Shown here: positions 11,601 through 51,200 of the stretch, one piece after another | Layout of the letters: each line of letters starts with the position of its first letter | Numbering within the stretch: the first letter of the stretch is position 1 | Source of the DNA: Tubiluchus corallicola | Lineage: Eukaryota; Priapulida; Priapulimorpha; Priapulimorphida; Tubiluchidae | Assembly (NCBI GenBank): GCA_030141605.1 | Contig: JAQGDQ010000389.1 | Location: 145,592-209,591, forward strand | Length of the DNA stretch: 64,000 nt | Direction of reading: 5' to 3' | Translations under genes and position numbers: made by a program | The notes under the pieces: generated by a model | The model's input: the letters and a program-made list of their open reading frames with translations, nothing else | The model's database searches: none | What the model was told of the DNA's origin: nothing

Positions 11601-14600
11601 AATTATCAAATTTTGGACAACGATTGTCAAATTTAGGACAATAATTATAAAATTTTGGACAACGATTGTCAAATTCTTTTGCAATATTAAACTAAAAATA
11701 ATACTGCAATATTAAATTTCTCCTGAATTTTTAATTTGTGTATACATATTATTACTAGCATTACTAGTATTCTTGCATAACCTCTCAGAAATACAGCGTT
11801 AACGGATGGTTGTGTTTGCAAAAAAATCTGCTAGTCTGCCTGTTTTTAGACTAGCTGACTATCTGCCTGTTTTTGGTACTAGCTGACTATTTGTTTGCTT
11901 GATTACTTTCAGTTTAATGAATGAAGTCGTTCACACATCGCCTACGATTGGCTCTAATGTCGAGGAAATAACATGGAAAAATATTCACTTTCTAATGTGG
12001 GATATTGGCGGACAAGAGTCCATACGAGCCGCCTGGCACACTTATTTTTCAAATACTCAGGTGAGTCCGTACGAGCCGCCTGGCACAGTTATTTTTCAAA
12101 TCCTCAGGTGAGTCCATACGAGCCGCCTGGCACACTTATTTTTCAAATACTCAGGTGAGTCCGTACGAGCCGCCTGGCACAGTTATTTTTCAAATACTCA
12201 GGTGAGTCCATACGAGCCACCTGGCACAGTTATTTTTCAAATACTCAGGTGAGTCCATACGAGCCACCTGGCACACTTATTTTTCAAATACTCAGGTGAG
12301 CCCATACGAGCCGCCTGGCACACTTATTTTTCAAATACTCAGGTGAGCCCATACGAGCCGCCTGGCACACTTATTTTTCAAATACTCAGGTGAGTCCATA
12401 CGAGCCGCCTGGCACACTTATTTTCAAATACTCAGGTGAGTCCATACGAGCCGCCTGGCACACTTATTTTCAAATACTCAGGTGAGTCCATACGAGCCGC
12501 CTGGCTCACTTATTTTTCAAATACTTGGGTGACTCTGTACAAGCCGCCCGGCACACCTGTTAAATGAAAGTACAAGTTATTTAATATGTTTAGTTTATCT
12601 TACTGTTGTCGCCTAAAACTATAACAAACAAATTTGCAAACAAAAAAACTGAAAATTATTTATGCTACAGCGGGATAGAAATTTTCTGAAGCAGCCGCCA
12701 TTAATTTGAAAATTATGATGTAACCGGTGGCCTTCGTGACTTTTCATAATCGCATCATGGCTTTCCGTAAGCGGTGCTTCTGCAGTTTTACCTGTGTTAT
12801 GTTTGTACAAAAATAACAGAAAAACGGCAGGTTTTGTTTTGCTTCTGACAGAAGTTGACAACATGCTGCTTTTCTTCAGTCAATGAACGACGTCATTGGT
12901 GAAAATGGCCGTTTAAAACATGAGCTTCTAAGCGTGAATGTGGAAATCGCACGCGGCGCTTATCATCCTCATTTACAAATCCTTCCAGGATTTCCCATAA
13001 ACATTGAAATAAGCCAAACTTTTTGTTAAGTAGAATTCAGTGTGAAAGTACATGGCACACTTCCAACTCTAGTAATCTAAATTTAAAGCAAAACTGAACC
13101 AAACGTTAAACTTGATAGATTTCAAAAACGACTTTCGTGAAAGAATAATTACCCGACAAACACAACTTCGCATACATGCTACTAGTTCTTCACTGTTACA
13201 TGCATTCCGTTATTTGCTAGTTAGATGGGCACTAGCGCCTGCATTTCAGAAATGCGTTGTACAAAAAATCATGTGCTGTACGTGTCAGTGCAGATATGTT
13301 AGTTTGTGATGAACTGCACACGTTCAACAGCTCATGCTTGAGCACAGCAGTAAATTTGAAATTTGAATTTTTACTTAAAACTTGCCTAGTTTTAGTACAA
13401 TACACTGAATTATATTTTACAAACACGTGCAGCACGTTCGTGGAATATTTTTGATGATGAAAATTATGTTAGTTTGTCATATCATAAATAGTTGGGATTG
13501 CATGCCATTAATTAAGTTTTTAATCTATTATTTAATTATTTTTAGCTTTTGCTAAACCTGCAATCATCAGAAACACTTTTGCAATATTAATTTGTTAAAA
13601 TGTATACATTTTATCGGACTTGAAAATGGGGCAGTATAAGAGAAATCATCCTGTCTTCCTTTAAGCTTTAGTATGATATATAATTACAAAGAAACCAGTT
13701 TTGCCATTGATTAGATGTCTTTTTGCATGTTGGTTTTAAGTATGGCTTCATGTCTTGTCAACACACGTAAAAACAAAATGGTCAATTTTTATTTTTAAAT
13801 CAAAATTTAATTATTGTTGGCTCCAACCATCATTATGTTAACAGTGAAGAGAAAAGAATTGTAAAGAGAAATCGTAATATTCATCCCAACTTTCCATGTT
13901 AAGTTATATTGCTCATCTGTTGTGTAATTGAAGAAGAAGAAGTTTCGTTGTGTGACATTGATTTATCAAAAGCACGTTATTGATTTTACTGATGAGATAA
14001 AGTAATTTATCCTTTTGCTAAGTTGTGAAGAGAGGACTGCAAATGCACTGATTATTTTTTTATACCTTACCCATAGTTATCCAAATTGCCACAAATGACT
14101 TGTCGTTGAAATTGCGGCGTGTGAGGATCGTCGCGGGAGTTTATGTTTACAAGTTTTATGCAACATTACTGCCGATGCAAGCCCTGTATGCAAAAAGGCA
14201 CTTGTAAGTGGTATAAAGTTGCAAGACTCAACTTCTGTGCACAACGCGACAACCTATAAGTGATAGAAAATTTCCAGACGAATTTTTTAGCGTGATTATG
14301 AAGCGTGTTTTGTGAGTTAATCAGTCTAATTTAATATTGATATCAAAATTGCTAATTAAATTTTACTGTGATTGCAGGTAGTAATTATGGTAGTTGACAG
14401 CACAGATAGGGAACGACTAACGACCGTGCGAGAAGAGTTGTATTCAATACTAGAAAATCAAGTAAGCTGAATACTTATGCAAACAAACCTTAACTAAAGT
14501 CAAATTTATGTGAACAATCCTTAGCCAAAATCAACCTTATGTGAACCAACCTTAACCAAAATCAAATTTTTATGAAAAAACTTAACCAAACTCAAACTAA

Positions 14601-48200: not shown

Positions 48201-51200
48201 GGGTGTTACAATAAAACCGGGACTGTACTTACTTGAAAAAGATTATAAATTTGGTGTTAAACAAGGTTGCTTACTATGAAAGGGGGGGGGGGGGGTGTTA
48301 CAATAAAAACCGGGACTGTACTTACTTGAAAAAGATTATAAATTGGGCCTTAAACAAGGTTGGTTACTATGAAGGGAGTGTTACAATAAAAACCGGGACT
48401 GTACTTACTTGAAAAAGATTATAGAAAATAATGCCAAGTCCACAATACGTGAGCACGTTTGCTACAGCAGAAAATGGAGCTAAGATTCGTAAACTTGGAA
48501 TGAGACTCAGTGCAATTATAAACGGCAAAATGTAAGTCATGTAAAGACGATCTTTGCTATCATCATTCGGATCCGTCTCCGGGTAGAAAACCTATAATAA
48601 ATAAACTCAAACTGAATAGATCCTAGTGAAACAGCAGCAAACTACATTTTAACTGTCAAATTTTAGCTAGACTCATTAATATATCATATACTAACTAAGT
48701 TACATGCAGCGAGGAAAATGACAAATTGCAAAAAACTCTAAAACAGGCCGGGGGGTTTGGGGCCGCCTAGGCCCCTACTGAGGTTGAGGGGCAAAGTCCC
48801 CATGGGGGTTCAAGGGCCATCACGTCCTGCCACCTAGCGGTTAGCTTGTGAAATAATGTACTGGGTCCGTAAAAATTTTCTCAACGAATTTATGCGATTT
48901 ACAAAAATGGCACTACTGGTCTTCCAAAAACTGGGAATTCAGCGTATCTGCGGAAAATTCTCATCCCTGGTTACATGGTTTTGGGTTTTGATAGCTCAAA
49001 AGTGGTCTAATACCACAAGGTTCTGAGTTCAAAACGCAGTTTACTCAAAATTTTCCAGCACCTTTTATCCTTCTAAATTTGATTGTTGACCAGTTGTATT
49101 TTAAAATCATGTTCTAAAAAATTAGGAATTACTAGTACAGTCGACCCTCATTAAACCGGACCCCGTTAGCCCGGATATCGGATAAAACGGACGTCACCCG
49201 TGGTAAAGGAAACTGACCGATTTCCGTCCGAGCCCGAGCGCTAAACACAACACGGCCTACCAACTGTACAATAATTTCATTATTCTCACAGGTTAACTAT
49301 TTTAAAGTAATATACAGCACAGTATATAGTGCAATGTATATATGCCTTATTAAGGTGATTATTCCTGTATAATATAGATCATATATAGGCATATCAGATA
49401 AATCGGACAAACGGCTAAACCGGATAACACCCCCCAATTAGTCCGGTTTAACGAGGGTTGACTGTATTTCTGTCTATGTGCTTCACGTATTTCATAAAGA
49501 TGAATTTTCAACTAAGATGTCATTAACTGTATCATTTGCAAATTTTACTGAAAAGGTAAAAGAACTTGTCATTAACCGAATGAGTAATTCTCGAACAAAA
49601 CGGCTTTCTCATTTACAGATCGTATTGTTAAACAGTTTGAACCTAGCCACTGGAGAGGGGGAGCAAGCCAGCCCTACTCAGTGCCGGTCCCAAGCCCGGA
49701 TAAATAGGAGGGTTAGGGTCAGGAAGGGCATCCGCCTGTAAAAACTCCGCCAAAACCTTCTATGAATGAGTCGGTGAGACTTAAAGGGAAAGTTCACAAA
49801 GAAGTGGTCAGACCCGCTCTAATCTATGGGCTGGAAGCAGCTTCTCTAAAGAAAACCGAAGAGAAGAAAATGGATGTGGTGGAGATGAGGATGTTGAGAT
49901 GGATGGTGGGAATAACAAGAAGAGATAAAATTAGAAACAATAATATCAGAGGAACAGTAAAAGTAGTGGAAGCCTCGCAAGATTGCGATGGTATGGACAC
50001 CTGAAAAGAAGAGTCGCTGAAGATCATGTGGGAAGAGAAGACATAAATGAAGAGATGGTCAACAACAGGAATGCGTGGAGAAGACTCGTTCACAACGGCG
50101 ACCCTGCATAGGGAAAAGCTGGGAAGAAGAAGAAGAAGATTGTTAAACAGTTTGAGTTAGCATTTTCGGTGTGAAAAGGCTTTATGAAGCACGCACCAGT
50201 TTTTATTGAACCTCATTAATTCTCATACAACGAAGGAAAAAAGCTTCACCTTGCGAATGTTCTCTGATAAAAAGACAAAATAGACACAACAGACTCCTAA
50301 TTGAGTCAGCAACAACGAAGCATTCACCAAAAACCTGAAAAATATCAAAAATTAAAGTCAATTGTGTAATGTAACACTTGAGGAAAAGTTATAGAGAAAA
50401 CACAAATTTAACAACTAAACCCGGAGTGTGCAAATTGCGGCCCGCGGGTCACTTGCGGCTCGCCGAGAGAATTTGTGCAGCCCGGGAAGAGATTTGTCAA
50501 CCTAATGAAAGTGCGGCCCGGGCGATTAATTGAGTGTATCCAGCTGAAGTCCGTGCCACGATCCCAAAGATAATGCGGGTAGTTTTTTCTACTAGATCGG
50601 ATGCCATTAACCCTTACAAGGCGGTTGTAGCTTAATGTCACTGTACTATACAGACTGTGTGATACACATTACTAATATGCATTGTAATGAAATTACCACT
50701 ATCTGTCCTGAAAGTAGAAATATATGGTTTGTAATATAAATTTTAATAACTCCTAAAATAGTTTCTTGAGTGTAGTAGTAATGATGTACGCAGGTCGGAT
50801 GCAAAAAAAATCGTTATTAGGCCTTTCTGTACTTGGCTCCTTGATCAAACTGCCTGTGGCCCGCGGGAATTGCAGGAAAGTTCAATGTGGCCCGGCTAGT
50901 CAGATAATTTGCACACCCCTGAACTAAACCATTGGCTTTTGTATTTATTGGCTACTTTGTCTAATTAAAGGAAAGATCAAGCTTCTTGGGAAGTTCGGGT
51001 TATTTCAATGCTAGAAGGATATTTAGTGTAATAAGTGATAAAAGCGTGACAAGCATCTCATGTGATTAGTAAAATCACTTTAAAGTCGTGACCGCTTCAT
51101 TCTTCCACCAATGACATCACTCAACTGAAGAAAAGCGGCGAACTGTCGACAGTAAATTAGGTTTCTACAAAGAATGAGACAGTTAACTTTGTTACGTTTT

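Follow-up and report, generated by a model that had tools for sequence, protein, structure and literature searches.

A 64,000-nucleotide stretch of the Tubiluchus corallicola genome (the window throughout this text; part of C2023, a 220,809-base contig of a 343.5-Mb assembly) carries three neighbouring genes, ARL5, FAM185A and SLC36, in which minisatellites lie across the edges of coding exons. An initial annotation, made from the letters alone, had placed one such array in ARL5, two in FAM185A and two in SLC36, and had assigned them to three 5' splice sites, one 3' splice site and one stop codon. Tandem Repeats Finder, which returned 58 rows for the window, together with direct reading of the sequence, confirmed all five arrays, and the flanks bore out the kind of edge claimed for each. 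In the four splice-edge arrays exon and intron sequence meet at the boundary within the unit. The ARL5 and SLC36 models are partial and cover the exons found, and the copy numbers given for all arrays depend on the assembly.

Boundary-spanning arrays in three genes

ARL5 lies on the plus strand. The last 45 bp of a coding exon at 11913–12060 fall inside a 47-bp array of 11.6 copies (12016–12556) that carries the 5' splice site CAG|GTGAGT, the functional copy being the first; the units hold CAG|GT, with TGG|GT in one late unit. Two exons of the gene match Arf in Pfam, the array-bearing one with E=2.2e-17 and another with E=3.8e-13, and the spliced fragment aligns with PDB chains on both sides of the array junction. 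The best of these chains, 1yzg, was deposited as 'ADP-ribosylation factor-like 8', which we take to be an older name of ARL5B, and the next four were deposited as ARL5 or ARL5A. The exon ends given here were corrected by eye; some ARL5 ends used in the null models described below are 1–3 bases off.

Two further arrays accompany this gene. A 31-bp array at 14473–15041 begins about 11 bp into the intron that follows the exon at 14378–14461 and does not include its edge. A 57-bp array (19 codons) at 17846–18521, 3' of the last ARL5 exon found, is fully open on the plus strand (233 amino acids) and partly open on the minus strand.

FAM185A, also on the plus strand, has seven exons (24082–24547, 27138–27247, 28366–28455, 30083–30209, 32674–32730, 34636–34728, and 37105 to the stop codon at 37271) and is spanned by arrays at two of them. 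The last 51 bp of exon 4 (30083–30209) lie inside a 58-bp array of 31 copies (30159–31969) with the 5' splice site TAG|GTAAGT, the first copy being functional. The last coding exon (37105–37271) is entered from the other side by a 33-bp array of 68 copies (34860–37112), which bears the 3' splice site TTTCTTACAG|GC with the functional copy last and holds only 8 exon bases, the first of that exon. About 94% of the intron at 34729–37104 consists of this 33-bp array, and the intron would measure 156 bp once the array is collapsed. With splicing at the first 5' site in the 58-bp array and at the last 3' site in the 33-bp one, the seven exons form one open frame of 369 codons. The sole match of the spliced protein came from the sawfly Neodiprion virginianus, whose FAM185A-like protein shares 24% identity with it (E=1.2e-10), and the exons tried against Pfam gave no match above cut-off.

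Upstream of the gene model, at 21963–22273, a 52-bp array of six copies has a strong 5' splice-site motif in every unit (mostly AAG|GTAAGC). No exon was identified beside it, and it may be a first exon of FAM185A that is non-coding.

SLC36 is read from the minus strand, and its nine-exon model stays in frame between position 54696 and the stop codon at 39207. The exon at 48409–48591 has its last 15 bp inside an array of about 90 bp and 16.6 copies (46961–48423), in which these exon bases are joined to the 5' splice site CAA|GTAAGT, the functional copy again being the first. The last coding exon (39207–39451) runs into a 51-bp array of 9.9 copies (38750–39248) with the functional stop in the first copy; this array holds the last 42 coding bases, stop codon included, and its units carry these bases or a degenerate copy of them. 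Both exons match Aa_trans, the last coding exon with E=1.4e-8 and the upstream one with E=5.8e-4 (under the Pfam cut-off), and a third SLC36 exon matches with E=9e-10. The model is supported by a relative's protein, P0002 (369 residues, whose codons lack introns and fill most of a 1,270-base contig), which is 92% identical to the spliced SLC36 along its whole length without gaps, crosses the array junction as LFQ|DV and has identical C-terminal residues. Among the best 120 of 229 matches, SLC36 shows 39% identity to the only Branchiostoma protein present and 43% to proteins from springtails and ticks.

Two other arrays were considered in this gene and rejected as edge arrays. The one at 39496–40704, the larger neighbour of the stop-codon array, is intronic and ends 44 bp before the last exon. 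The 83-bp array at 45346–46426 is likewise intronic, 68–72 bp from SLC36 exons on both sides; it makes up about 89% of the intron at 45278–46497, which would be 222 bp when collapsed.

Predicted use of the exon-adjacent copies

A sixth boundary array was found by sampling and reading regions on other contigs. In region L014, on the minus strand of another contig, an Arf-family exon has its end, at 5743, within an array of 8.1 copies of a 32-bp unit; the units carry 23 exon bases and ATACG|GTAAGTC (GTAAGGC in a single copy), with exon text, boundary and intron text together. Splice-edge arrays occur at both kinds of boundary, at three 5' sites and one 3' site in the window and at another 5' site in L014.

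Splicing at the exon-adjacent copies gives open frames in the FAM185A and SLC36 models. In the gene models these copies are the functional ones, and they would be those through which this animal's transcripts are actually spliced. Where the unit is 47, 58, 89 or, in L014, 32 bp long, splicing at the second 5' copy would result in a frameshift, while the 33-bp FAM185A unit keeps phase. These properties bear on whether the arrays have a function, either as repeated 5' sites that recruit U1 or tune splicing, or, for in-frame 33-bp units, as alternative coding sequence. The phase of the 33-bp unit is consistent with the latter, and the frame of the last FAM185A exon does stay open upstream, but only to 36984, which amounts to about four copies; the frame-shifting units of the other splice arrays argue against a function. 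In three of the four splice arrays the splice-site columns vary less than the unit's other columns, which counts for a function; the fourth, ARL5, shows the opposite. The stop-codon columns of the stop-codon array also vary less than the rest. The relative's SLC36 protein (P0002) lacks inserted units altogether. Taken together, a function for the arrays appears very improbable.

Distribution of minisatellites in the assembly

For the null models described below, the rows for the window were merged into 19 arrays of at least three copies and a period of at least 14 bp; shorter periods and lower copy numbers were excluded. The comparison sample comprised twenty 10-kb regions around Arf-family exons elsewhere in the assembly. 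When arrays of period at least 10 bp and at least three copies are counted, they occupy 21% of the window and 44% and 33% of its two flanks, while 9 of the 20 Arf regions hold none and the richest holds 28%. Minisatellites are spread very unevenly over the regions sampled.

The five regions whose array content reaches 10% or more belong to contigs of 18–458 kb, and the nine without arrays to contigs of 249 kb to 3.0 Mb. This distribution, and the difficulty of assembling arrays of this kind, would be compatible with misassembly of array lengths or of the arrays themselves. Against this, full units carry private differences, mostly 0–14% from the consensus, and both flanks of the arrays join conserved exons exactly. 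Individual copy numbers may be wrong, but we regard an assembly artefact as a highly unlikely source of the arrays.

Proposed founding of the boundary arrays

The exon-boundary minisatellites probably arose as minisatellites ordinarily do, in a part of the genome rich in arrays, and were tolerated where they happened to meet an exon edge. Short segments would be duplicated in tandem at many places in such a part, probably by slippage or microhomology repair, and would then expand. Where the founding segment straddles an edge, one complete edge would survive, namely the first 5' site, the last 3' site or the first stop codon. A founding duplication across a splice edge would be harmless because this complete edge remains beside the exon, and the same logic holds for a stop codon; with one intact edge left, edge-spanning arrays would therefore be tolerated like intronic ones. 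Duplications wholly within coding exons would mostly be lost. Such selection, with exonic arrays lost and edge-spanning arrays tolerated, fits the six cases and is assumed in the null models. With short ancestral introns, overlap of a founding unit with an edge would become more likely, and several of the array-bearing introns measured about 150–700 bp before they expanded.

The initial annotation had suggested a process that seeds or keeps tandem duplications at exon edges. In this alternative, edges attract or retain arrays through transcription- or splicing-linked breaks, through microhomology of the 5' motif with exon text, or through the exon acting as a template against decay. The counts over the window lend it support and weigh against founding without regard to edges. 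In a random-founding null in which arrays were collapsed to one unit and placed among 20 exons, with wholly exonic units rejected, 0.60 edge arrays were expected over the window and 5 were seen (P=0.0003, post hoc); restriction to the gene-bearing part raised the expectation to 0.86 (P=0.001, also post hoc). The low expectation stems from dispersed repeats, which take up at least 13.7 kb of the window by comparison with only 284 kb of sequence from elsewhere.

A second test, which does not need gene models, points the same way. A 5' splice site scoring at least 8 bits on a general metazoan matrix occurs in 12 of 58 array units, against 3.7 expected from non-array windows, 4.7 from shuffled units and 4 in reversed units; low-complexity units and four loci overlapping others were left out. 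Strong sites are thus 2.6–3.2 times commoner in array units than in the two controls, and at a threshold of at least 10 bits the same matrix finds them in 6 units, with 1.3 and 1.4 expected and none reversed. Five of the 12 units come from the window, four of the 12 are boundary arrays already counted, and two pairs among the 12 each look like one repeat family. Attraction to edges could also draw on the exonic GAGTCC of ARL5, which is similar to GTGAGT at its splice site, and on the arrays that begin 13, 24, 44 and 68 bp from an exon without spanning its edge.

The excess shrinks when intron length is allowed for. In an intron-conditioned null, each array is founded within its own intron at collapsed length and splice edges alone are scored. 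This covers 13 of the 19 window arrays, the six that lie in no mapped intron being dropped, the stop-codon array among them; outside the window, it covers only the 9 arrays that lie between two Arf-family exons. In the window, 1.71 edge arrays were expected and 4 seen (P=0.058); outside it, 0.56 were expected and 1 seen (P=0.44), these 9 arrays with their one case being the evidence independent of the window. The combined 22 arrays give 5 against 2.27 expected (P=0.053), a borderline excess of about 2.2-fold that still counts somewhat in favour of the edge. Within introns, then, array counts are not far from expectation.

Preservation of units by the neighbouring exon would make the exon-adjacent units purer than other array ends, and this was not supported (P=0.50, 6 versus 25 arrays). 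Mean unit divergence in the six boundary arrays is 3.8% at exon-proximal ends, 6.0% at distal ends and 3.4% in the interior, and in the 25 other arrays 5.4% at the ends and 6.1% in the interior. The seeding process proposed initially is thus not demonstrated, and attraction of arrays to exon edges is not established; on balance we consider an active role of the edges unlikely. A modest real excess is possible, up to a few fold, and would not in itself prove an edge-directed process. We prefer ordinary founding tolerated at the edges.

Comparison with lancelet mirages

The initial annotation had also held that no named phenomenon of this kind exists. Structures of the same kind are already known from lancelets as mirages, and the original paper on them, dealing with Adh, reportedly dates from 2002. 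As excerpted from PMC3087553 and PMC3902484, mirages are minisatellite-like tandem duplications of exon-intron boundaries; the former describes them in lancelet Adh3 and in the globins BflGb6 and BflGb9, with length instability and, for Adh3, instability in the soma, and the latter extends the list to PGBD5, with a citation for troponin C. In anatomy the arrays described here match this class. Further marks of mirages are mRNA splicing that goes on undisturbed, and concerted evolution within the array with the end units exempt; the in-frame models and the unit divergences given above bear on these two points. In both animals 5' and 3' boundaries are affected and many units carry splice signals, and the lancelet units, 10–72 bp in Adh3 and 150–160 bp in the globins, bracket the 32–90 bp of the arrays described here. 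Copy number differs, with 3–6 copies in BflGb6 and up to 68 here, and the arrays here are in genes of another animal. The stop-codon array has no counterpart mentioned in the mirage descriptions found.

Tandem genomic duplication with AGGT sites is a described source of intron gain, as in a potato RdRp gene (PMC4974935, in excerpt). The duplication of exon text together with splice signals is shared with the arrays here, but there a new intron was made, whereas here old introns have been lengthened and no new intron was seen. Minisatellites dense within introns are known from the first introns of earthworm metallothionein genes (PMC12783039) and from C. elegans, where they have been linked to alternative splicing (PMC4039745); neither account, in the portions consulted, mentions units that contain an exon edge.

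In the literature found, mirages are described from a handful of lancelet genes, and six cases in a small sample here suggest a broader class. One of them falls on a stop codon, and another multiplies a 3' splice site into about 68 near-identical copies. Such arrays are natural tests of how one site is picked by the spliceosome when identical ones lie side by side, and of whether introns grow or are gained through tandem duplication. A true preference for edges would point to a mutational process linked to them. It seems doubtful that array birth or survival in the array-rich part of this genome is concentrated several-fold at exon edges, with splice-site sequence and constrained exon both founding and preserving arrays; were this so, mirages would be a widespread animal route to longer introns and to more splice sites and stop codons, well beyond lancelets.

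Other genes and arrays

A Pfam scan covered 174 (97 + 77) of 201 candidate reading frames, from which known Arf exons and some others were left out. Five frames matched TMEM214, and one each matched a kinase, Arf, G-gamma and two reverse-transcriptase RNase H families; a zf_CopZ match (E=0.0078) was discarded. Exon finding by codon usage in other array-rich loci proved too weak to use. Positions were established for four of the five TMEM214 frames, and two arrays near TMEM214 or likely TMEM214 exons on the window's own contig were left uncounted: that at L033:9560–10000 touches an ambiguous 3' splice site of a TMEM214 exon, and that at L031:2–2280 starts about 12 bp inside the intron beside an exon that is likely TMEM214 by reading only.

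Two observations concern the distal part of the window. A short cysteine-rich frame at 59689–59892 on the minus strand looks metallothionein-like by eye and has no Pfam match. Arrays at 54156–54266 and, on a second contig, at L018:2443–2874 are built of very similar units (GTCAAATGT...TTAGGTAA), and arrays may travel inside a dispersed element.

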